Source: Mangrovibacterium diazotrophicum
GTDB lineage: Bacteria; Bacteroidota; Bacteroidia; Bacteroidales; Prolixibacteraceae
Assembly (NCBI RefSeq): GCF_003610535.1
Contig: NZ_RAPN01000001.1
Span: forward strand, 3,893,320 to 3,957,319
Reading direction: 5' to 3'
DNA length: 64,000 nucleotides
The notes under the pieces were generated by a model that was not told where the DNA came from, searched no databases, and saw only the letters and a list, made by a program, of their open reading frames with translations. Made by a program: the position numbers and the translations under genes. Below are positions 18,343 through 32,691 of the stretch, one piece after another (position 1 is the stretch's first letter; every line of letters begins with the position of its first letter).

Positions 18343-20346
18343 TTATTTTTCCGTTTCCGGCGTAAATTTTTCGTGGTAGTCTGTAGAAAGAACACGGAAC
18401 TCGGTTCTTCGGTTGATCGATTTCGCAATTTCCTGTTGCTCGGGTGTTAATCGGTTGATGAATTCTTCCGTCAACTCGTCATTCCGCTTCAGGAAATCGT
18501 ACTGACGAGCCAACTCACGGGTGATCTTTTTCGGCCATGTTTCGCCATAACCTTTTGCCACCAATCGATCCGGATTGATACCCCGTTCAATAAGATAATC
18601 TACGGCTGCCTGTGCCCGCTTTTGTGATAAGTCGAAGTTGAACTTGTCGGAACCAACGTGGTCGGTGTGCGACATAAGCTCGATGGTGATCGTTGGGTTG
18701 GTTTCAAGAATTTGCACCACGCTGTCGAGCGAATGTTTTGAAGCTTCATTCAACTCCCAGGCACCAAAAGCGTAGCTGATGTTTTCAACCTTTATTGGCG
18801 CATCTGTCGGTGTGAGGTACAGGTTCACATGAAAATCTTTACTGTCGGTCAGCCCAATTGTGTTTTCGCGGATTTTGTCATTTAAATAGCCGTCGCGGTA
18901 TGCTGCAAAAACGTACTCGGTTTCGGGATTCAGCTTGAGCTGAAATTTTCCGTCGGTTGCACGCATGCGCAGGTTGGTACCGTCGGTCGCAATCACACGA
19001 ACGCGGGCCCCGTCGATGCGCTGTCCTGTTTCTTTATCGAAGATCTCGCCGGTTATCCGGTACACTTTGGGTGGAAGATAGAAGGAATAAATGTCGTCGC
19101 TTCTCGATCCTTTGCGATTGGAGGAAAACAGTCCGCGCGGATTTTCCTCATGAATGAAGGTCATTCCGAAGTCGTCGCCGGATGAATTAACCGGGACCTG
19201 CAGGTTTTCGATTGTCCATTTACCGTCTTCGTCCTTGGTCGCTTTAAAAATATCAAGTCCGCCCATACCAGGGTGGTAGTCCGACGAAAAATACAGGTTT
19301 CCTTCCCAGTCGACTGAAGGGAACATTTCGTCGCCGGGAGTATTAATTTCTTTGCCTAGATTGACCGGCTTGCCGAAAGTACTTCCTTCGCGGGTAGCCA
19401 TCCAAATGTCGTATCCTCCATAACCGCCGGATTTGTTGGAAGTGAAATAAAGCGTGTTGCCGTCGGGCGAAAAAGCCGGGTGGGCAGCAACCAAACTGTC
19501 GGACGTCAACGGCAGTAAAACCGGTTCGGACCAATTACCACGAGACATGCGTGCCGCGAAAAGGCTCGCACCCAGATCTTTGGTTTTGTCGAAACGGCAA
19601 CGGGTAAAAACCATCAGGTCGCCGTTTGGTGATATGGCCGGAGCCCCTTCATCTTCTTCGGTATTGATAATTCCGCTGTCGTCGATCAGCTCCGGCTCAG
19701 ACCATTTCTGCTTTTGCAGCTGAAATTCCGAGCGGTACAAATCGCCAAAATGCTGGCCGGTGATCGCACTGGTGCGTTTCCCGCTGATGTCGCTTTCCCG
19801 CATCGATGATAAAATAAGTTCGTTGTCGCGGCCGGCGATAAAAGCAGGAGAGTAGTCGCTGAATTTGGAGCTCAGTTCTTTTACCGGAGCAACGATGTAG
19901 CGTGAAGGATTTTCCTCCCATTCCGGAACATAGGTGCAGGCTGCGAGTCCGTTCTGTGCTTGTTGGTCGTCGGGAAACTGTTCCAGGTATTGCTGGTAGT
20001 AAATTTTGGCTTCTTCAAAGTTTTGGTAAGCGCGCAAACACTCGGCGCAGTAAAGCATGGCTTTCGGATCGGGATAGTTTCGGCGGATGGCATTCTTGTA
20101 CCAAATTGATGCCCTGCCGTAGTCCCCCAACTTGCGATAGGCTTCAGCCAATTGAAAAGCCATTTCCATGCGGTGCTGCGGGTTGTTGTCCTTGCGGTAT
20201 GCTTTGCGAAATTTTTCAGCCGACCGGTAATACTCACCCATCTCCACGGAGGTCATTCCCGAGCGATACATTTTTTGAGAAGTACAGGCGCCCAGGATAA
20301 ATACCAAACCAAGAAGAACGAGACGGGTCAATAAAATTCGCTTCAT
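18343..20346 (-). CDS. PorE-like OmpA-family lipoprotein (TPR, PD40 propeller, CRD, OmpA)
   Basis: Outer membrane lipoprotein that likely anchors a complex to peptidoglycan. From the ATG at 20346 (667 residues) there is a lipoprotein signal ending LGAC, TPR repeats at about 35-150 and a PD40/WD40-like beta-propeller at about 165-440 (SPDGNTLYFTSNKSGGYGGY, FPSVDWEGNLYFSSDYHPGM). A carboxypeptidase-regulatory-like domain and a C-terminal OmpA domain (MSHTDHVGSDKFNFDLSQKR) follow. This order matches PorE of the Porphyromonas type IX secretion system. Several paralogues share the layout, so the T9SS role is inference. Confidence 0.88.
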   Translation of the reverse strand: MKRILLTRLVLLGLVFILGACTSQKMYRSGMTSVEMGEYYRSAEKFRKAYRKDNNPQHRMEMAFQLAEAYRKLGDYGRASIWYKNAIRRNYPDPKAMLYCAECLRAYQNFEEAKIYYQQYLEQFPDDQQAQNGLAACTYVPEWEENPSRYIVAPVKELSSKFSDYSPAFIAGRDNELILSSMRESDISGKRTSAITGQHFGDLYRSEFQLQKQKWSEPELIDDSGIINTEEDEGAPAISPNGDLMVFTRCRFDKTKDLGASLFAARMSRGNWSEPVLLPLTSDSLVAAHPAFSPDGNTLYFTSNKSGGYGGYDIWMATREGSTFGKPVNLGKEINTPGDEMFPSVDWEGNLYFSSDYHPGMGGLDIFKATKDEDGKWTIENLQVPVNSSGDDFGMTFIHEENPRGLFSSNRKGSRSDDIYSFYLPPKVYRITGEIFDKETGQRIDGARVRVIATDGTNLRMRATDGKFQLKLNPETEYVFAAYRDGYLNDKIRENTIGLTDSKDFHVNLYLTPTDAPIKVENISYAFGAWELNEASKHSLDSVVQILETNPTITIELMSHTDHVGSDKFNFDLSQKRAQAAVDYLIERGINPDRLVAKGYGETWPKKITRELARQYDFLKRNDELTEEFINRLTPEQQEIAKSINRRTEFRVLSTDYHEKFTPETEK

Positions 20347-20476
20347 GAATAACAGCTGATTAAACGCTAAAGTAAGCATATTTTGTACGTAAGATGAAAC
20401 GCAAATTTCGGAAATAAAGTATCCAACACGTTGGTTTTTATCCCTCGGTGAAAGAGAGTGCCTGTTGGAAATGAAA

Positions 20477-20498
20477 AAGCCCGGCATTTACCGGGCTT
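20477..20498 (-). terminator. Terminator after the M13 peptidase gene
   Basis: Perfect 8-bp GC-rich stem (20477-20484 with 20491-20498), 6-nt loop, followed by five Ts on the minus strand. Confidence 0.8.
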
Positions 20499-22754: not shown

Positions 22755-24944
22755 TTATTTTACGAATAATAGTTCCCGATATTTGGGCAATGGCCAAAGT
22801 TCGTTGTCAACAGCCAACTCCAGTTTGTCGATGTGGTAACGAATATCGTCTAAAAACGGGAAAACTGTTTTTTCGTAAGCCTTGGCTTTTTCGGCTGAGT
22901 TTTCAATGACGTTGGCAACTTTTCGTGCTTCCACCATTTCTTTCACTTTCAATTTGATGGTAGAAATGTGGCTTCCTACTTCGCGAATCAAATCCAGACG
23001 TCCTTCGGCTAAACTCTCAAATTCTTCCGCCGGGAAAAGATCTTTGATGTGTTTGACATTTTCCATCAAGCTGGTTTGATATTGCACGGCTGTTGGCACA
23101 ATGTGGTTGATCGCCAAATCGCCCAGTACGCGAGCCTCAATCTGGACTTTCATGGTGTATTTTTCATACTCCACTTCCGACCGGCTTTCCAGTTCATTTT
23201 TATTTAGTACATCTACTGATTTGAACAAGTCGATTACCGATTGAGTGGTGTAGGCTGAAATGGCCTCGGGTACGCTGCTCACGTTGGTCAGCCCGCGTTT
23301 GGCGGCTTCTTTTATCCATTCTTCACTGTAGCCGTTTCCGTCGAAGCGAATCGGCTTGGTTTCGATAATCAGACGTTTCAGAACCTGGAAGATCGCCTCG
23401 TCTTTTTTCACTCCTTTGTCAATCAAATCATCCACCTCGGTTTTAAACTTGGTCAATTGGGCTGCCATGGCTGTATTAAGTGCGATGAGCGACGCTGCGC
23501 AGTTGGCTGAAGAACCCACGGCGCGGAACTCGAAACGGTTGCCGGTAAACGCGAAAGGCGAAGTGCGGTTGCGGTCGGTTGTGTCCAGAATGATCTCCGG
23601 AATGCGACCGATATTTAATTTTAAAGCTGTTTTTTCGTCCGGCGTCATTTTGCGATCAACGACGGCTTCCTCCATCAGGTCGAGCATTTTGCTTACTTCG
23701 GATCCAAGGAATACCGAGAGAATTGAAGGAGGAGCTTCGTTTGCTCCCAGGCGGTGTGCATTGCCGGCACTGTAAATACTGGCGCGCATCAGATCCTGGT
23801 GGTCATAAACGGCCTTCAGCGTGTTAACCACAAAGGTCAGGAACTGCAGATTTGATTTTGGATTTTTACCCGGTGAATACAGGTTGATTCCGGTGTCGGT
23901 TACCAGCGACCAGTTGTTGTGTTTGCCTGATCCGTTTACGCCGGCAAACGGTTTCTCGTGGAAAAGAACCATGAATTTATGCCGGCGGGCGATCTTTTTC
24001 ATGATGTCCATCAACAGCTGGTTGTGGTCGTTGGCCAGGTTGGCCTCCTCGAAAATCGGAGCTACTTCAAATTGGTTCGGTGCCACCTCATTATGGCGTG
24101 TTTTTACCGGAATTCCCAATTTGTAGGCTTCATTTTCAAGATCCTCCATAAAACGGTAAACCCGTGTCGGAATCGAACTGAAATAGTGATCGTCCAATTG
24201 CTGGTCCTTTGACGAAGCGTGTCCCATGAGTGTGCGGCCGGTCAAAACCAGGTCGGGACGAGCCATGTAAAGGGCTTCGTCAATCAGGAAATATTCTTGT
24301 TCCCAGCCCAGGTTGGCTTGTACTTTTGTAACTGTCTTGTCGAAATACAGGCAAATTTCGGTTGCAGCTTTGTCCACTGCACTTAACGAACGTAGAAATG
24401 GCGTTTTATAATCGAGTGCCTCACCAGTGTATGAAATGAAAACAGTTGGAATACAAAGCGTGCCGTCGACAATGAATGCCGGCGATGAAGCGTCCCAGGC
24501 TGTGTAGCCGCGAGCCTCGAAAGTCTGGCGAATTCCACCGCTTGGGAACGATGAGGCATCCGGCTCCTGTTGTGCAAGTAATTTGCCTGAAAATGCTTCG
24601 ACAACACCACCATCTTCTCCGTGAACGATAAATGCGTCGTGCTTTTCGGCTGTTCCGTCTGTCAACGGATGAAACCAGTGTGTGTAGTGTGTAGCGCCGT
24701 TTTCCGTTGCCCAGGCTTTCATTCCCTGTGCTACCTGGTCGGCCATTTTTCGGTCGATCGGCGCACTGCTATCAATCGCATCGCTGACGGCTTTGTAAGC
24801 TTCGCGCGACAGGTATTTCTTCATTTTCGGGCGGTCGAAAACTTTGACACCGTAGTAGTCGGAAGTCAGGTTGTGTTCCCTGTGTATCTCTATCGGTTTG
24901 CGCGAGAGGACTTCCTCCAACGCTTTAAATCTAAATACAGCCAT
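22755..24944 (-). CDS. glnN: Type III glutamine synthetase
   Basis: ATP-dependent amination of glutamate to glutamine; cytoplasmic dodecamer in the GSIII family first described in Bacteroides. The 729-residue length is diagnostic, since types I and II have about 450 and 350 residues. Typical segments are LGWEQEYFLIDEALYMARPD, HNEVAPNQFEVAPIFEEANL, KPFAGVNGSGKHNNWSL and NRTSPFAFTGNRFEFRAVGS. It is divergent from the ligase-kinase-HAD operon across a 449-nt gap. It is probably the main ammonium-assimilating enzyme, though a type II enzyme lies 4 kb away. Confidence 0.97.
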   Translation of the reverse strand: MAVFRFKALEEVLSRKPIEIHREHNLTSDYYGVKVFDRPKMKKYLSREAYKAVSDAIDSSAPIDRKMADQVAQGMKAWATENGATHYTHWFHPLTDGTAEKHDAFIVHGEDGGVVEAFSGKLLAQQEPDASSFPSGGIRQTFEARGYTAWDASSPAFIVDGTLCIPTVFISYTGEALDYKTPFLRSLSAVDKAATEICLYFDKTVTKVQANLGWEQEYFLIDEALYMARPDLVLTGRTLMGHASSKDQQLDDHYFSSIPTRVYRFMEDLENEAYKLGIPVKTRHNEVAPNQFEVAPIFEEANLANDHNQLLMDIMKKIARRHKFMVLFHEKPFAGVNGSGKHNNWSLVTDTGINLYSPGKNPKSNLQFLTFVVNTLKAVYDHQDLMRASIYSAGNAHRLGANEAPPSILSVFLGSEVSKMLDLMEEAVVDRKMTPDEKTALKLNIGRIPEIILDTTDRNRTSPFAFTGNRFEFRAVGSSANCAASLIALNTAMAAQLTKFKTEVDDLIDKGVKKDEAIFQVLKRLIIETKPIRFDGNGYSEEWIKEAAKRGLTNVSSVPEAISAYTTQSVIDLFKSVDVLNKNELESRSEVEYEKYTMKVQIEARVLGDLAINHIVPTAVQYQTSLMENVKHIKDLFPAEEFESLAEGRLDLIREVGSHISTIKLKVKEMVEARKVANVIENSAEKAKAYEKTVFPFLDDIRYHIDKLELAVDNELWPLPKYRELLFVK

Positions 24945-25393
24945 ATTAGTCTCAGAGGTTAAGTTAAATCAATAATGTCATAAAATGTGGTTTTTGTTGG
25001 TTTCGACATTTCAAACACGCATTGCCTGAAGGTGAACGAAAGATCAACAAACGCAAAATAATCCCGCAAAAATTTTGCACCCCAAAATTAGAGTTTTTAA
25101 TAGATAAACGTCACATTTAGATGTGTTTTGTAAGGTAAAACCGCTTTTTGATTTTAGATCCCTATTATAAAACAACCATACTCTTTCCCGGACCGATTTC
25201 CACCAGAAGGGGGCTTCAGAAAGTTGTCCGGGATTCTGTGCGAAGATGGGTTGAAACGCGTCTCTGGCAGCTTGTGGCGGCCCTTGTTAAGAAAATTCGC
25301 ACGGTGTGCAACATTTCCTCTAACATTGTTTTATTACTTATCGGTTATGCTTAATTTAATATCTTCGTAAATGTAGATGAAAGAAAGTAGCCC
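24945..25393. other. Divergent intergenic region between glnN and the GS-like operon
   Basis: 449 nt without a credible gene. It contains a near-perfect palindrome at 25066-25078 (GCAAAAATTTTGC) and an inverted repeat at 25112-25125 (CACAT-N4-ATGTG). A CAAAATTA at 25083-25090 is the reverse complement of a TAnnTTTG box and could serve glnN. A TATCTTCG at 25360-25367 lies just before the operon. Short open frames here look random. Confidence 0.5.
25360..25367 (+). promoter_or_regulatory. Possible -7 box of the GS-like/kinase/HAD operon
   Basis: TATCTTCG, one mismatch from TAnnTTTG, 27 nt before the ATG. No convincing -33 element is present. Confidence 0.3.
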
Positions 25394-26746
25394 ATGGGAA
25401 GAAACGAAATAGTCAAGAAGTTAGAGGAAGCGGGACATCGAAAGATCAGATTTGCGATATGTGATATTGACGGAATCCTTCGCTCGAAAACCCTTCTTTT
25501 GGATAAATTTATCGAAATAACTGAAAAGCAAACCGGGTTTTGCGACGTTGTTTTTGGCTGGGACAGCAGCGACGTTTGTTATGATAATGTTGAATTGACC
25601 GGTTGGCATACCGGTTACCCTGATAAAAAAGCAAGTATTGATTTAACGACTTACCGAAACGTTCCGTGGGATAATAATATCCCCTATTTTTTGGGCGATT
25701 TCGGTCAGGATGAATCCAATCCAGCCTGCCCGCGAACGTTGCTGAAAAAGATACGCAACCAGGCGACAGAAATGGGATATTCCGCCATTTTTGCCGCTGA
25801 ATTTGAATGGTTCAACTTTTTGACTACGCCCAATGAACTGGCTGCTGACAAATTTCACACCTTGGAGCCGATCTCTCCGGGCATGTTTGGTTATTCGCAA
25901 TTGCGTCCGTCACTCAACCGGGAATATTTCAATGAACTATTCGATTTGTTAAGCCAGTTCCGAATTCCGTTGGAAGCTCTTCATACCGAAACGGGCCCCG
26001 GTGTTTACGAAGCTGCTATTCGTTACGACGATATTTTGCAGGCAGCCGATAAGGCGACACTGTTTAAGACAGCCGTTAAAGAAATAGCTTACCGACATGG
26101 GATTGTGGCCACATTTATGGCAAAGTGGAACGAAAATTTGCCGGGTTGCAGCGGACATATCCATCAGAGTATTTGGAGTAATGATCAGAGTAAAAACCTG
26201 TTTTATTCGGGCGACAAAGCGAAGCCGATGAGCAGCATGATGGAAAGCTATTTGGCAGGATTGCTTTATTGTTTGCCAGAGGTGTTACCCATGTACGCAC
26301 CAACCATCAACAGCTACAAGCGTTTGCGCGATGGTGCCTGGGCGCCGACAACCGTCACCTGGGGCCACGATAACCGCACAACAGCTGTTCGCGTTTTGAA
26401 TGGTGATGCAAAATCAACACGTTTGGAAATGAGGGTGCCCGGCTCCGATATCAATCCGTACCTGGCTATGGCCGCCTCGCTGGCATCGGGATTGTATGGT
26501 GTGCGCAACGGATTGAAGTTGGACACGCCTGCGATTGTTGGTAATGCCTATGCGAATCGCGAAGTGACAAAACTACCTTCGAACCTGCTGGATGCCACGC
26601 GCCAAATGGAACAGTCTAAATTAGCAAACGAGCTGTTTGGAGAGGGCTTCACCAATCACTTCACAAAGACAAGGGAGTGGGAGTGGCGCGAGTTTGGCAA
26701 GGCCGTGACCGATTGGGAGTTGAAACGTTATTTTGAGATTATTTAG
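25394..26746 (+). CDS. Glutamine-synthetase-family ligase (FluG/PuuA-like, probable gamma-glutamyl-amide synthetase)
   Basis: ATP-dependent ligase with the type I glutamine synthetase fold, 450 residues. Metal and substrate residues are kept: E136/E138 (AEFEWF), E199/E206 (TETGPGVYE), H255/H257 (GCSGHIHQS), R310, R328 (DNRTT) and E345/R347 (RLEMR). The flap Glu that handles ammonium (Glu327 in Salmonella GlnA, in EAP) is replaced by Trp316 in GAWAPT, as in FluG- and PuuA-type enzymes that use amines. It should therefore make a gamma-glutamyl amide rather than glutamine. It is the first gene of a three-gene operon; the actual amine is unknown. Confidence 0.85.
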   Translation: MGRNEIVKKLEEAGHRKIRFAICDIDGILRSKTLLLDKFIEITEKQTGFCDVVFGWDSSDVCYDNVELTGWHTGYPDKKASIDLTTYRNVPWDNNIPYFLGDFGQDESNPACPRTLLKKIRNQATEMGYSAIFAAEFEWFNFLTTPNELAADKFHTLEPISPGMFGYSQLRPSLNREYFNELFDLLSQFRIPLEALHTETGPGVYEAAIRYDDILQAADKATLFKTAVKEIAYRHGIVATFMAKWNENLPGCSGHIHQSIWSNDQSKNLFYSGDKAKPMSSMMESYLAGLLYCLPEVLPMYAPTINSYKRLRDGAWAPTTVTWGHDNRTTAVRVLNGDAKSTRLEMRVPGSDINPYLAMAASLASGLYGVRNGLKLDTPAIVGNAYANREVTKLPSNLLDATRQMEQSKLANELFGEGFTNHFTKTREWEWREFGKAVTDWELKRYFEII

Positions 26747-26757
26747 AAAAAGAGCAG

Positions 26758-27837
26758 ATGGAGCGAGTGATTCGCAGACCTTTAAAACGAAAAATGGAGA
26801 AGCTGGACAATTATCATATTATAAGGCAAGCTTGGAGAGAATTTGACGACCGGCACGAGATCAAAGGAATTTTTGATGTGAGTGCACACGTGTCGACAAA
26901 TTCGGTGTATAAAGTTTCTTTTTACAACCGGCAGCCAGTGTTCGCCAAGTTATCCGATTACGGGAAGTTTGAGCATTTCAAAGAAGACCACGTCATCATC
27001 AATAATTTGGCTAATAACCTGGAAATTCCGTACGAGACCTTTCTGGCGCAATCGCTGGAGAAACGCAACGACCTGTACATTTATCGCTATTACTCGCAGG
27101 ATCATTGTGCCTGGGTTGTTTTTTACAATCCAATCAAGGTGAAGAATAAATTGCCACGACGGCTGGAGGATCGGCATGTGAAGAAAATGGGGCGCGAGTT
27201 GGCTCGTTTTCATAAAGCTTGTTACAACATCAGCGCGCAACTGCCGATCGCGTCAAAAAGCGTGGTAACGGATATTCACCAGCTGACGAAAACCATCCGC
27301 GAGCAAAAATTCTGTGCGACACAGGCGCAAAAGGATTTAATTCTGAAACAATGCGACGTCTTTCTGAATAACGCCGATCATTACAATTATATGACCGAGA
27401 TAGAAATTATCCCGGTATTTGTTGACTGGAACATCGGGAACTTCTCGGTTACGCCTGAGGGGAAATTTTATTCTCGCTGGGATTACGACTGGTTCCGCAT
27501 GTCGTCGCGGGTGATGGATTTTTACTTTTTCAGCCGCGTTTGTTCCGATATTGGTGATCGCACGGTTTTCAGCTATGTCGTTGATACCTTAATGGAAGAG
27601 CGATTCATTACCTTTTTGAAGGAGTACCACAAAATTTACCCGCTCACCGAACCGGAAGTTCGGTTGATTGAGGAGTGTTACCGCTTTTTCATTTTGAATT
27701 ACGTAATTAAGGACGGACCATACTTTTTCCAAGAATCATACTCTCGCAAATTGCAAAAAGAAGCCTATGAGGTCTATTTGCCGAGAATAGAATCCAACTT
27801 TCAGGCTGAAAAATTGCTGCGCGCTTTAAAGCTATAA
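26758..27837 (+). CDS. APH-fold small-molecule kinase (phosphotransferase family)
   Basis: 359-residue protein with the aminoglycoside phosphotransferase/choline kinase fold. Visible elements are a candidate ATP-binding Lys64 (VFAKL), the Brenner motif variant FVDWNIGN at 221-228 with catalytic Asp223 and Asn228 (the usual leading His is absent), and the metal-binding WDYDW at 241-245. It starts 11 nt after the ligase gene and ends 2 nt before the HAD gene, so it is surely co-transcribed. It probably phosphorylates a hydroxyl on a small metabolite, perhaps the ligase substrate or product; that is inference. An internal ATG at 26794 is an alternative start. Confidence 0.8.
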   Translation: MERVIRRPLKRKMEKLDNYHIIRQAWREFDDRHEIKGIFDVSAHVSTNSVYKVSFYNRQPVFAKLSDYGKFEHFKEDHVIINNLANNLEIPYETFLAQSLEKRNDLYIYRYYSQDHCAWVVFYNPIKVKNKLPRRLEDRHVKKMGRELARFHKACYNISAQLPIASKSVVTDIHQLTKTIREQKFCATQAQKDLILKQCDVFLNNADHYNYMTEIEIIPVFVDWNIGNFSVTPEGKFYSRWDYDWFRMSSRVMDFYFFSRVCSDIGDRTVFSYVVDTLMEERFITFLKEYHKIYPLTEPEVRLIEECYRFFILNYVIKDGPYFFQESYSRKLQKEAYEVYLPRIESNFQAEKLLRALKL

Positions 27838-27839
27838 TT

Positions 27840-28688
27840 ATGAGGACGAAAGATTTTAAGTCGGTTGCACTGAAGTATAAAACGATTTTTTTTGATGCGT
27901 TTGGTGTGTTGAAAAACCACAAAGGGATTATTCCCGGCGTAGAGAAGACATTTGATTTCCTGGACGAAAACGGGATCAACTATTTTGTGGTTACTAACGA
28001 TAGTTCGCGTGGCCCCGAAGGACTGGCAGATGGTTACATTCGCCGCGGGATCAAAAGTATCACACCGGATAAGATTATTTCGTCCGGGATGCTGGCTCGC
28101 GACTGGCTGTCACTTAAAATAAAGGAAGGGACGGTTGCGTACCTGGGTACGGGTGATTCAGCTCATTATGTCGAAACAGCTGGGCTGGATACGCTTGCCA
28201 TTCGGGATTTGGACCTGGAAGATATCGACCACATCAAGTGCCTGGTTTTTCTGGATGACGAAGGTTTCGACTGGAACCAGGACATCAACAAAGTGATCAA
28301 CCTGCTGCGGAAACGCAACATGCCGGTAGTGGTGGCCAATACCGATATTCACTATCCCGTCAGCAAAAATGACGTTGCCGTGGCTATCGGCGGTATTTCC
28401 GATTTGGTTGAGGAAGTGCTCGGTAAAAAATTCATCCGCTTCGGAAAGCCCGATGCGCAGATGTTTATGTTTGCGTATGAGCGAGCCTGCGAGATGAAGC
28501 CAGTGAAGAAGAATGAAATCCTAATGGTGGGTGACACCCTTTATACCGACATCATCGGCGGGAACAAGTTCGGAGTTGATACTGCGCTGGTACTTTCCGG
28601 AAACACGCTGCCCGAAATGGCTAAAGTTCGGATTACCAGCTCCGGTATTATCCCAAACTTCATTTGTGACTCGGTGATTATTGATTAG
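27840..28688 (+). CDS. HAD-IIA family (NagD-like) protein with altered motif I
   Basis: 282-residue haloacid-dehalogenase superfamily protein with a type IIA cap. Motif I is FFDAFGVLKN with nucleophile Asp19, but Phe21 replaces the second Asp that acts as acid/base in HAD phosphatases. Motif II is VVTNDSSRG, the motif III Lys lies in FGKPDAQMF, and motif IV is GDTLYTDIIGG. The mutated motif I recalls HAD-IIA subgroups with DxWG in place of DxDG. It is the last gene of the operon, 2 nt after the kinase. It may be a phosphatase of changed chemistry or a binding/regulatory protein. Confidence 0.82.
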   Translation: MRTKDFKSVALKYKTIFFDAFGVLKNHKGIIPGVEKTFDFLDENGINYFVVTNDSSRGPEGLADGYIRRGIKSITPDKIISSGMLARDWLSLKIKEGTVAYLGTGDSAHYVETAGLDTLAIRDLDLEDIDHIKCLVFLDDEGFDWNQDINKVINLLRKRNMPVVVANTDIHYPVSKNDVAVAIGGISDLVEEVLGKKFIRFGKPDAQMFMFAYERACEMKPVKKNEILMVGDTLYTDIIGGNKFGVDTALVLSGNTLPEMAKVRITSSGIIPNFICDSVIID

Positions 28689-28799
28689 CCGATTTCTGTT
28701 TGCTGCAGAGCTACCCGCAGATTGCAGGAAGCGCTATTAGCTGTCCCATATCTACTTCGCGCACTTTTCTGTTATTCTATTCGATACTAAAGACATAAA

Positions 28800-28828
28800 A
28801 AAAAGCTACTCGGTAAGAGTAGCTTTTT
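28800..28828 (-). terminator. Terminator after the type II glutamine synthetase gene
   Basis: Perfect 12-bp stem (28800-28811 with 28817-28828), 5-nt loop, followed on the minus strand by a T run. The reverse orientation also ends in Ts, so it may stop the convergent operon too. Confidence 0.85.
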
Positions 28829-28850
28829 AGATATGCTGTGTTGTAATAAA

Positions 28851-29873
28851 TTACATTTTAGCAACTGCTTTTTCAGTTGTGTCGATGATAACAGCAGCGA
28901 TTTTGTATGGGTCACCGTTTGAAGCAGGACGACGGTCTTCCAAACGACCTTTCCAACCATCTTCAACAGTACCAACAGGGATACGGATTGAAGAACCACG
29001 GTCAGATACACCATAGCTGAAGTCATTGATAGAAGCAGTTTCGTGTTTACCAGTCAAACGTTGGTCGTTGTATGCACCGTAAACAGAAACGTGTTCTTGG
29101 ATGTGTTTTCCGAATTCTTCGCAGATTGCGTCGAATACTTTTTTGTCACCACAAGTTCTCATCAAACCGTTAGAGAAGTTGGCGTGCATACCAGAACCGT
29201 TCCAGTCAGCATCTTTACCAAGTGGTTTTGGGTGCCATTCTACGTAAACACCATATTTTTCAGCAACTTTTTCAAGGAAGTAACGTGCAATCCAGATTTG
29301 GTCACCTGCATCGTGAGCACCTTTTGCGAAGATTTGGAATTCCCATTGTCCGGCAGCAACTTCTGCGTTGATACCTTCAACGTTCAAACCAGCTTCCAAA
29401 CAAACATCGAAGTGTTCTTCAACGATCTCACGACCGAAAGCAGCTTTCGCGCCAACACCACAATAGTAAGGTCCTTGTGGGCCTGGGTAACCACCTGCAG
29501 GGAAACCTAAAGGTAATTTTGTATCCACGTCATACAGGAAATATTCTTGTTCGAAACCGAACCAGTAGTCATCGTCATCTTTAGCGATAGTTGCACGACC
29601 ATTTGTTTCGTGTGGAGTACCGTCTGCATTCAAAACCTCGCACATAACAACGTAAGCATTTTTACGAGTTACGTCAGGATAAACTGCAACTGGTTTCAAC
29701 AGACAGTCTGAGCTTCCACCTTCTGCTTGTTCTGTAGAAGAACCGTCGAATGACCACATTTTTAAATCTTCCAGTTTTCCATCGAAACCATCTTTAGACA
29801 TCATTGTTTTTGCTCTTAATGTCTGAGTTGGCTTATATCCATCTAGCCAGATGTACTCCAATTTTGATTTCAT
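28851..29873 (-). CDS. glnII: Type II glutamine synthetase
   Basis: Glutamine synthetase of the short, eukaryote-like GSII family, decameric in known members. The 340-residue product has the GSII hallmarks: MWSFDGSSTEQAEGGSSDC, the active-site segments FGFEQEYFLYD and GFPAGGYPGPQGPYYCGVGA, GINAEVAAGQWEFQI, and the ATP/glutamate-binding WNGSGMHANFS. It converges on the GS-like operon and sits 3.9 kb from glnN. Having types II and III in the same neighbourhood suggests different roles in nitrogen supply. Monocistronic, with its own promoter and terminator. Confidence 0.96.
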   Translation of the reverse strand: MKSKLEYIWLDGYKPTQTLRAKTMMSKDGFDGKLEDLKMWSFDGSSTEQAEGGSSDCLLKPVAVYPDVTRKNAYVVMCEVLNADGTPHETNGRATIAKDDDDYWFGFEQEYFLYDVDTKLPLGFPAGGYPGPQGPYYCGVGAKAAFGREIVEEHFDVCLEAGLNVEGINAEVAAGQWEFQIFAKGAHDAGDQIWIARYFLEKVAEKYGVYVEWHPKPLGKDADWNGSGMHANFSNGLMRTCGDKKVFDAICEEFGKHIQEHVSVYGAYNDQRLTGKHETASINDFSYGVSDRGSSIRIPVGTVEDGWKGRLEDRRPASNGDPYKIAAVIIDTTEKAVAKM

Positions 29874-31387: not shown

Positions 31388-32659
31388 TTACCAGTCTACT
31401 TTTTTACGTTTGAACGGCATGGTCATACAGCGGGCGCCGCCGCCGCCGCGTGCCAGTTCTGAGCCTGCAATGGTAATCACACATTTTTTGTTTTTTGGGA
31501 TTTCGGCTTTCCCGTCGATGATATTTTGCGCTTTAATAACCTCAAAGCCGCTTTTGTTCAGCTCTTCTACCGTATTCACGTTGCGCTCGTAACCGATAAC
31601 TTGCCCCGGTGCGATGGCAAAAAAGTTTGCGCCACTGTGCCATTGTTCCCGCTCCTGCGTCCAGATGTCGTTTCGTCCGCCGCAGTAAATTGGATTCAGA
31701 TCGATGCCCAGCTTTTTCAAGGCCTTTACCAGGTTTTTCTCCTCTGTTATTTTGGTTACTTCGCCGTTTTCAATTTGAATATGAATGGTGTGGTAGCGGG
31801 TTGTTCCCAAAATCAACGGTTCGTACACCATGCAGGCGTCACGGTCCAGGAAGGTGAAAACCATATCGAGGTGGATAAACGATTCGGGCATGTCGGGCAG
31901 TTCCTGAACCAACACGTGGCGGATCGGTTCCTTTTTTGCTTTGATGCTTTCCAGTATGAAATCAATACCCTGCGTTGAAGTTCGGATGCCGGTTCCGATC
32001 ACCAATACATCTTCCCGGGCAACCTGAAAGTCGCCTCCTTCGATGGAGATGTTGCCGGTCGTCGGAATGTTTCCTGCTTTTTGCGAATTCACAGTGGTGG
32101 CTTCAATCATGGGATGATGGTTGAAAATCGCTTCCATGATCAGCGCTTCGCGGTCGCGGACAGCATTTGCCATTTTCCCGATTACCACTTCGTCGCGGAA
32201 AGACATGGATGCATCGCGGGTAAACAGGAAATTGTGCAGCGGCCAAAGGCTGAAACGCTCCTGGCTCAGGTAGCGCGTCAGGTTGTTGCGCATGATCGGT
32301 ACTCCTTGAATAAGTTGCCGGGCCAGCTCCGGCGACGTCAGCTCAAAAAGATCGGCGTGAATTTCCTGGGCGTTTTCCTGCCGGCAAATTTCATCCAGAA
32401 GTTCTTTGCGAACCTGTTCCGATTTCAGAACCTCGGCCAGCAGGTCGGTCACTTCAAAAACACGACTTACTTTGTTGAGCACACCTTTCAGTTGTTTGTA
32501 TTCTTCGGTGGCAACTGCCAGGTTCAGAATGTCGCTGTACAACGCGCGCTTGGCCGTTTCCGGAGTCATTTCTTCAACTTCCAGACCCGGTGTATGAATA
32601 ATGACTCCCTCAAGTTCCCCAAACTCGGTAGTCACATTCACTTTCATTTTGTCTGTCAT
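31388..32659 (-). CDS. arcA: Arginine deiminase
   Basis: Hydrolyses arginine to citrulline and ammonia. From the ATG at 32659 the product is 423 residues. Guanidine-group-modifying enzyme motifs are present: FTRDAS, the Asp/Glu pair in ISIEGGDFQ, the catalytic His in FIHLDMVFTFLDRDA and the nucleophilic Cys411 in GGGGARCMTMPF. Ornithine carbamoyltransferase (arcB), carbamate kinase (arcC) and the antiporter (arcD) are not nearby, so here it may serve nitrogen release rather than a full ATP-yielding pathway. A longer frame to 32686 would start upstream of the promoter box. Confidence 0.94.
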   Translation of the reverse strand: MTDKMKVNVTTEFGELEGVIIHTPGLEVEEMTPETAKRALYSDILNLAVATEEYKQLKGVLNKVSRVFEVTDLLAEVLKSEQVRKELLDEICRQENAQEIHADLFELTSPELARQLIQGVPIMRNNLTRYLSQERFSLWPLHNFLFTRDASMSFRDEVVIGKMANAVRDREALIMEAIFNHHPMIEATTVNSQKAGNIPTTGNISIEGGDFQVAREDVLVIGTGIRTSTQGIDFILESIKAKKEPIRHVLVQELPDMPESFIHLDMVFTFLDRDACMVYEPLILGTTRYHTIHIQIENGEVTKITEEKNLVKALKKLGIDLNPIYCGGRNDIWTQEREQWHSGANFFAIAPGQVIGYERNVNTVEELNKSGFEVIKAQNIIDGKAEIPKNKKCVITIAGSELARGGGGARCMTMPFKRKKVDW

Positions 32660-32683
32660 AGAATTCCCTTTTCTAATTTTCAA

Positions 32684-32691
32684 CAAATATA
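32684..32691 (-). promoter_or_regulatory. Predicted -7 box of arcA
   Basis: Minus strand TATATTTG, an exact TAnnTTTG match, 25 nt before the arcA ATG. No clear -33 element at standard spacing. Confidence 0.4.

Follow-up and report, generated by a model that had tools for sequence, protein, structure and literature searches.

A candidate gamma-glutamyl amino-alcohol module in Bacteroidota combining a glutamine-synthetase-like ligase, an APH-fold kinase and a HAD-IIA protein

Two of the closest described counterparts of the locus reported here are considered first. The first comprises GlnA4 of Streptomyces coelicolor and the ethanolamine glutamylation route of Chromohalobacter salexigens and Phaeobacter, as presented in the available text of PMC6529630 and PMC10132767. 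The second is the HAD-kinase part of ACAD10, whose HAD domain, according to PMC11342911, keeps only the first aspartate of the DxD motif, showed hardly any phosphatase activity and holds the attached kinase in check. Here we describe three adjacent genes of Mangrovibacterium diazotrophicum that recall both, located in a stretch of 64,000 nucleotides (the window; contig NZ_RAPN01000001.1, positions 3,893,320 to 3,957,319). All three are intact open reading frames (ORFs) on the same strand, with the coordinates given in a preliminary description of this DNA, and their ORF boundaries confirm its tight packing, with gaps of 11 nt between the first and second genes and 2 nt between the second and third:

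25394-26746, + strand: GSL, 450 aa, Gln-synt_C family, glutamine-synthetase-like ligase with a putative gamma-glutamyl-amide-forming function
26758-27837, + strand: KIN, 359 aa, predicted small-molecule kinase of the APH/homoserine-kinase/NahK fold
27840-28688, + strand: HAD, 282 aa, HAD-IIA protein with the close solved homologue 2HX1

GSL shares with GlnA4 and the glutamylation route the Gln-synt_C fold, the metal and ATP residues and the lack of a counterpart of Glu327 (E327). Close relatives of GSL, like the ligase of the ethanolamine route, stand in operons that also encode an ethanolamine permease, dehydrogenases and a Peptidase_C26 protein. Unlike that route as covered in the available text, the trio includes a kinase and a HAD protein and has no permease, dehydrogenase or hydrolase, and GSL is far from the solved structure 5DM3. 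KIN and HAD resemble the ACAD10 part described above in pairing an APH-fold kinase with a HAD that retains the first DxD aspartate only; they differ from it in being separate proteins, in the type IIA of the HAD and in having a glutamate ligase as partner. Among the neighbours drawn, no acyl-CoA dehydrogenase gene was seen by eye to recur beside the trio, and no description of the trio turned up in a search of the open-licence PubMed Central literature. We tentatively regard the trio as a metabolic module with a dedicated role and a patchy distribution in Bacteroidota, in which GSL, KIN and HAD would act in this order. Taken jointly, the module and the whole scheme appear to us quite possible, though short of probable.

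Co-occurrence and linkage of the three genes

The distribution of the trio was examined in 296 Bacteroidota genomes, drawn evenly from the phylum of the window, with unequal E-value limits of 1e-3 for KIN, 1e-30 for HAD and 1e-60 for GSL. KIN and HAD were each found in 36 of the 296 genomes, and the two sets are identical (Fisher p ~4e-47, a value that ignores phylogeny). The two genes share a contig in 36 of 36 cases, lying at most 300 bp apart in 35 and 2.3 kb apart in one. GSL was detected in 42 genomes, as a close form (51-100% identity) in 34 and as a distant one (34-38%) in eight. Of the 36 KIN/HAD genomes, 30 have the close form, vs four of the other 260 genomes, and in 29 of these 30 it lies within 620 bp of KIN, the exception being genome G146. 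These co-occurrence and linkage counts rule out a chance adjacency of the trio. They also bear out the expectation that the three genes would be conserved together across genera, and extend it to families and to more than one class.

The same order was seen at individual loci, whose genes were called crudely by script as longest ORFs. After removal of 11 loci without a full KIN from a set of 122, the remaining 111 KIN loci, which include contig ends and genomes entered twice (for example, L066 and L117), show GSL immediately upstream of KIN in 83 cases and HAD immediately downstream in 101. The best 80 of 319 KIN relatives are all titled Bacteroidota, the top ones having 88-90% identity, and tblastn found no KIN on PLSDB plasmids.

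The ligase is less firmly tied to the other two. Seven of the 36 KIN/HAD genomes have no adjacent GSL and six have no close GSL; five of these six carry a distant GSL, vs three of the 256 other genomes without a close one. Two observations weigh against a scheme that starts from GSL: G223 has KIN and HAD but no GSL at E <= 1e-15, and the same holds for G014 and G016, two genomes of the same order as the window genome and outside the 296-genome sample, in both of which KIN and HAD lie on separate contigs. Since KIN and HAD are found without GSL in these three genomes, their job may not need it, and GSL may be a partner rather than an obligatory first step. The occurrence of KIN and HAD apart from GSL thus makes them the tighter unit: what is conserved at the core is KIN-HAD, which GSL usually accompanies.

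Beyond the trio, neighbours differ by lineage, except a GSII-type glutamine synthetase gene found in 76 of the 111 KIN loci. In the window the trio is flanked by glutamine synthetase genes on both sides, features absent from the preliminary description:

22755-24944, - strand: GSIII-type glutamine synthetase, upstream flank, divergent from GSL
24945-25393, no strand: intergenic region of 449 bp between the divergent GSIII and GSL genes
28851-29873, - strand: GSII-type glutamine synthetase by profile match, downstream flank, convergent

Three glutamine synthetase superfamily genes, each of a different type (GSIII, the GSI-like GSL and GSII), therefore lie inside 7.1 kb (22755-29873). GSII, 162 bp from HAD, reaches 394.6 bits against the GlnII model, short of the cut-off of 500. 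Of 21 listed Prolixibacteraceae loci, the window counted, 19 have the divergent GSIII-GSL pair; the exceptions are L136 and L042, the latter a short contig. Elsewhere in the window, 31388-32686 (- strand) encodes an arginine deiminase family protein that scores 280 and 275 bits against two NCBIfam models, far under their cut-offs of 414 and 489, and may be a different guanidine-modifying enzyme. A PorE-family type IX secretion protein (673 bits, cut-off 600) is encoded not far from the trio at 18343-20487 (- strand), and its cluster c25 reappears close to the module in 11 loci. No Rfam family reached its gathering score in the window.

This setting could suggest that KIN and HAD form a regulatory pair that reversibly phosphorylates a nitrogen-assimilation target, either a protein or an allosteric metabolite, and so controls GSL together with GSII or GSIII. 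The invariable pairing in the 36 genomes and the frequency of GSII would fit such a role, as would the presence of GSIII in 19 of the KIN loci and the position of KIN and HAD directly behind GSII, without GSL, in L138 and L139. Yet no other glutamine synthetase is among the genes drawn at L127-L131, L134, L140 and L142-L145, KIN and HAD sit on different contigs in G014 and G016, and the nearest solved folds of KIN are small-molecule kinases; we consider a regulatory pair improbable.

The ligase and its relatives in ethanolamine operons

GSL matches the Pfam family Gln-synt_C with an E-value of 2.4e-96 and scores 190 bits against the gamma-glutamylputrescine synthetase model (cut-off 650). Its second-best solved relative is 5DM3 (E 2.3e-71), which we take to be the ethanolamine-route enzyme of C. 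salexigens. A paper on C. salexigens (PMC5299690) reportedly names Csal_0679. A role as a true glutamine synthetase was rejected, the flap Glu327 being a tryptophan and the score against the NCBIfam GlnA model being 224 bits vs a cut-off of 429.15.

Residues were compared, in the numbering of the aligned Escherichia coli GlnA, on an alignment of 108 rows thinned to 74, which also served for the first tree. GSL keeps the equivalents of E129, E131, E212, E220, G265, H269, H271, R321, R339, R344, R355, E357 and R359 and carries three substitutions, E327 to W316, N264 to P250 and Y179 to F165. The metal and ATP residues are retained in the 64 trio GSLs, with one row having Asn at H271. Position 327 is Trp in all 64 trio sequences, all five from ethanolamine operons and all five distant ones. 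Position 264, a glutamate-site residue, is Pro in the trio (64/64) and ethanolamine-operon GSLs and Ala in the distant GSLs, and position 179 is Phe in the former two groups and Glu in the latter. The column of D50, the ammonium residue, falls on D64 of GSL, where 52 of the 64 trio rows have Asp, but the alignment around it is judged poor. The change of E327 to Trp fits the loss of this residue in GlnA4 and PauA7, in which the available text of PMC6529630 gives Phe (F331) and Trp (W296), respectively, in its place. These residue states support the earlier assignment of GSL as a former of gamma-glutamyl amides, and GSL is probably a ligase of this type.

The likely amine is suggested by relatives of GSL outside the trio. 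Five genomes carry GSL in an ethanolamine operon, four of them without KIN and HAD (G053, G111, G170 and G182) and the fifth, G146, with the KIN-HAD pair on another contig. Read by eye, the order in all five is an ethanolamine permease followed by GSL and then Fe-ADH, PuuD-like and ALDH genes. Profiles confirmed the permease (TIGR00908, over cut-off) and a Peptidase_C26 protein in five of five; at L155 all four partners were placed by profile, the permease over its cut-off and the other three under theirs, and the ALDH of L147 was also tested by profile. Because close relatives of GSL without linked KIN and HAD sit in ethanolamine operons, the likeliest amine is an amino-alcohol, which GSL most likely glutamylates; the guess of such a substrate in the preliminary description now looks like a good one.

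Only a single alignment column (349) splits the 64 trio GSLs from the five ethanolamine-operon GSLs under the criterion used. In a second, free tree of 42 rows, from which the long-branch row L124 was left out, the ethanolamine-operon sequences nest among Bacteroidia trio GSLs (15 trio and five ethanolamine-operon rows, support 97/100), while a separate trio clade is not rejected on this set (approximately unbiased test, p-AU 0.081). The 74-row tree joins the two groups on a weak branch (87/0). Distant Bacteroidota GSLs are 32-38% identical to GSL; those of G084, G178, G139 and G191 adjoin, by eye, SDR-, ALDH- and GATase-like genes, and in G084 and G178 also a permease. The distant GSL of G210 has no SDR-, ALDH- or GATase-like neighbours in view, and a permease in this genome is located ~14 kb from KIN.

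Several points weigh against ethanolamine itself as the amine. The five ethanolamine-operon sequences are few for a comparison of specificity. The permease profile TIGR00908 is matched over its cut-off in 11 of the 45 genomes searched, seven of them KIN/HAD genomes, but in only four of the 30 genomes that combine a close GSL with KIN and HAD (G119, G146, G234 and G269), and it has no match in the window genome. In G119, G234 and G269 the permease precedes EutB/EutC-like genes (by eye, with Pfam confirmation for G119). Given this rarity of the permease and its pairing with EutB and EutC, free ethanolamine is not obviously the substrate of GSL. At the G119 locus (L196:7851-11604), in a trio genome, the permease is followed by EutB and then EutC, with no shell gene recognised there by eye.

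Simple ethanolamine catabolism was rejected as the role of the trio: no permease, dehydrogenase or hydrolase gene has a consistent place beside the trio, the window genome has no match to the permease profile, and in three trio genomes the permease accompanies ammonia-lyase genes (by eye, one of them Pfam-confirmed). A variant of gamma-glutamylethanolamide catabolism, in which generic dehydrogenases encoded elsewhere oxidise the product while KIN and HAD clean up a side product, would accord with the kinship of GSL to the ethanolamine-operon ligases and with the presence of KIN and HAD in G084, G178, G139 and G191, whose distant GSLs have the neighbours described above. The same gaps nonetheless count against it, as do the bare surroundings of the distant GSL in G210 and the ammonia-lyase setting of the permease in three trio genomes, so that we regard the variant as distinctly improbable.

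The kinase-HAD pair

Pfam gave no match to KIN at E <= 1, and every NCBIfam match fell below threshold, homoserine kinase coming closest (E 0.0063). An AlphaFold2 model built from 43 sequences has a mean predicted local distance difference test (pLDDT) score of 87.6. Its top solved matches in Foldseek include N-acetylhexosamine 1-kinase (NahK), homoserine kinase, YtaA and amicoumacin kinase, with the microcompartment aminopropanol kinase 6EF6 at rank 13 and ethanolamine kinase also among the matches, all at 12-16% identity. KIN resembles these APH-fold kinases in its fold and in the catalytic Lys, Asp, Asn and Asp, motifs that were assigned by eye, and K64, D223, N228, D242 and D244 are invariant in the 43 aligned sequences, the window counted. 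The APH-like family motif is HGD. KIN, unlike the named kinases, has FVD at this position, no Pfam match and 12-15% identity to them. On its predicted structure, KIN is a kinase of the APH/homoserine-kinase/NahK fold, and the earlier call of an APH fold thus agrees with the model.

The acceptor of KIN cannot be read from these matches, because at 12-16% identity they span sugar 1-kinases and homoserine, antibiotic, aminopropanol and ethanolamine kinases, and this too counts against the proposed scheme. One could picture KIN doing the job of a homoserine kinase or an N-acetylhexosamine 1-kinase, with an anomeric or acyl phosphate as the target of HAD and some other reason for the linkage of GSL. 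The sub-threshold homoserine kinase match and the rank of both enzymes among the top folds lean that way, and a HAD without the general acid would suit a phosphate with a good leaving group; still, KIN is only 13-15% identical to either kinase, and the drawn loci show no recurring sugar or threonine gene, save flanking genes common within Mucilaginibacter. We give this assignment very little weight; in our reading KIN most likely phosphorylates the GSL product or that product's precursor.

HAD exceeds the cut-off of the HAD-IIA profile TIGR01460 (125.9 bits vs 100.15), so its family placement in the preliminary description stands. Like the HAD-IIA phosphatases chronophin/PDXP and NagD and like 2HX1, it has, besides this profile, the nucleophile Asp, the Lys and the GDTxxTD motif; D19, K203, D232 and D237 are invariant in 106 sequences, which include the window and repeated genomes. 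HAD phosphatases usually carry the full DxD motif. In contrast, position 21, the second Asp of this motif, is Phe in 82 and Tyr in 24 of these sequences and Asp in none. LHPP, a HAD-IIA enzyme, appears likewise to lack the second Asp. 2HX1 aligns with HAD over its whole length and has the same DAFG motif; the available text of the one relevant paper merely includes 2HX1 in a list of test structures.

Since the second DxD aspartate is missing, an ordinary phosphatase role, as the family label had implied, is doubtful. From its residues HAD would either have a regulatory role or hydrolyse an unusual phosphate, and the kinase-restraining HAD of ACAD10 offers the nearest precedent that we found, by analogy. 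Against a purely regulatory part stands the retention of the nucleophile, the Lys and motif IV, with which HAD may well catalyse the turnover of an activated phosphate.

Neighbour genes and the proposed scheme

The preliminary description had also envisaged a later trimming step. The trio encodes no trimming enzyme, and only some relatives have a candidate next door. A GGACT-family gene occurs in 53 loci of Mucilaginibacter and relatives, in 50 of them between GSII and GSL (L057, L060 and 48 more), where it lies on the strand opposite GSL in 49. A Peptidase_C26 gene precedes HAD in G014 (L166:8253-9849), and in G016 (L167:4939-8747) a single run consists of a GSII-like gene (by eye), an aminotransferase gene, a Peptidase_C26 gene and HAD. 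Members of two unrelated families known to act on gamma-glutamyl compounds thus occur beside the module. Mere presence in the genome was uninformative for both GGACT (34 of 45 genomes) and Peptidase_C26 (45 of 45, and 14 of 14 controls), many of the latter hits apparently lying in frames of GuaA-like length; a Peptidase_C26 protein as query matched 68 of 296 genomes and led nowhere.

The aminotransferase of G016 is 54% identical to a CobD/HisC-like protein that is closest to threonine-phosphate decarboxylase CobD (191.1 bits vs a cut-off of 290.55) and is encoded, in 12 Prolixibacteraceae loci, 3' of HAD and on the other strand. In 11 of them it precedes GSII, while L050 shows no GSII. Members of the family lie at L037:9921-11042 and L167:6075-7196. 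In a sample of 21 related genomes, copies above 50% identity occur in G001, G002 and G016, at HAD/GSII loci only. No such gene lies at the window locus, and at >50% identity none occurs in the window genome, in G005 or in any of the 296 phylum genomes. The threonine-phosphate (cobamide) route was rejected as a general role, the CobD-like gene being confined to few lineages.

This aminotransferase would fit a different order of events, in which KIN acts first on a hydroxy amino acid or another hydroxy compound, a pyridoxal phosphate (PLP) enzyme, either the CobD/HisC-like neighbour or a housekeeping enzyme, decarboxylates or transaminates the phosphate, HAD dephosphorylates it and GSL caps the amine with glutamate, the trio being a biosynthetic route to a gamma-glutamyl amino-alcohol. 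The 12 loci, the G016 run and the restriction of the relatives' copies to such places speak for it. The lack of the gene at the window locus and across the phylum sample does not, and neither does a HAD without the general acid expected of a phosphomonoesterase. On balance, a kinase-first route seems unlikely.

For the order ligase, kinase, HAD, the case is built on relationship for GSL, on fold for KIN and on residue state for HAD. GSL would spend ATP on converting L-glutamate to gamma-glutamyl phosphate and couple the activated glutamate to the amine of a small amino-alcohol; ethanolamine or a compound close to it is the likeliest, perhaps supplied by lipid head-group turnover. KIN would then use ATP to phosphorylate the free hydroxyl of the gamma-glutamyl amino-alcohol or of a closely related free compound. 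HAD would bind the phosphorylated product at its aspartate/Mg site and, having lost the usual general acid, would serve as a regulator or as a slow, specialised hydrolase that limits the product of KIN in the manner of ACAD10. Removal of the gamma-glutamyl group would fall to enzymes from other loci or, in some relatives, to the adjacent GGACT or Peptidase_C26 protein. The fuller claim, that Bacteroidota possess a pathway both making and controlling a phosphorylated gamma-glutamyl amino-alcohol, with a two-protein bacterial counterpart of the ACAD10 kinase/HAD part, we regard as rather doubtful.

The kinase-HAD pair is present in about one-eighth of the sampled Bacteroidota genomes (36/296), usually with the ligase. 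If the scheme is true, it would extend gamma-glutamyl amine chemistry by a kinase step, could provide a function for the family of structure 2HX1, and would make the pairing of a DxD-defective HAD with an APH-fold kinase testable in a simple bacterial system.

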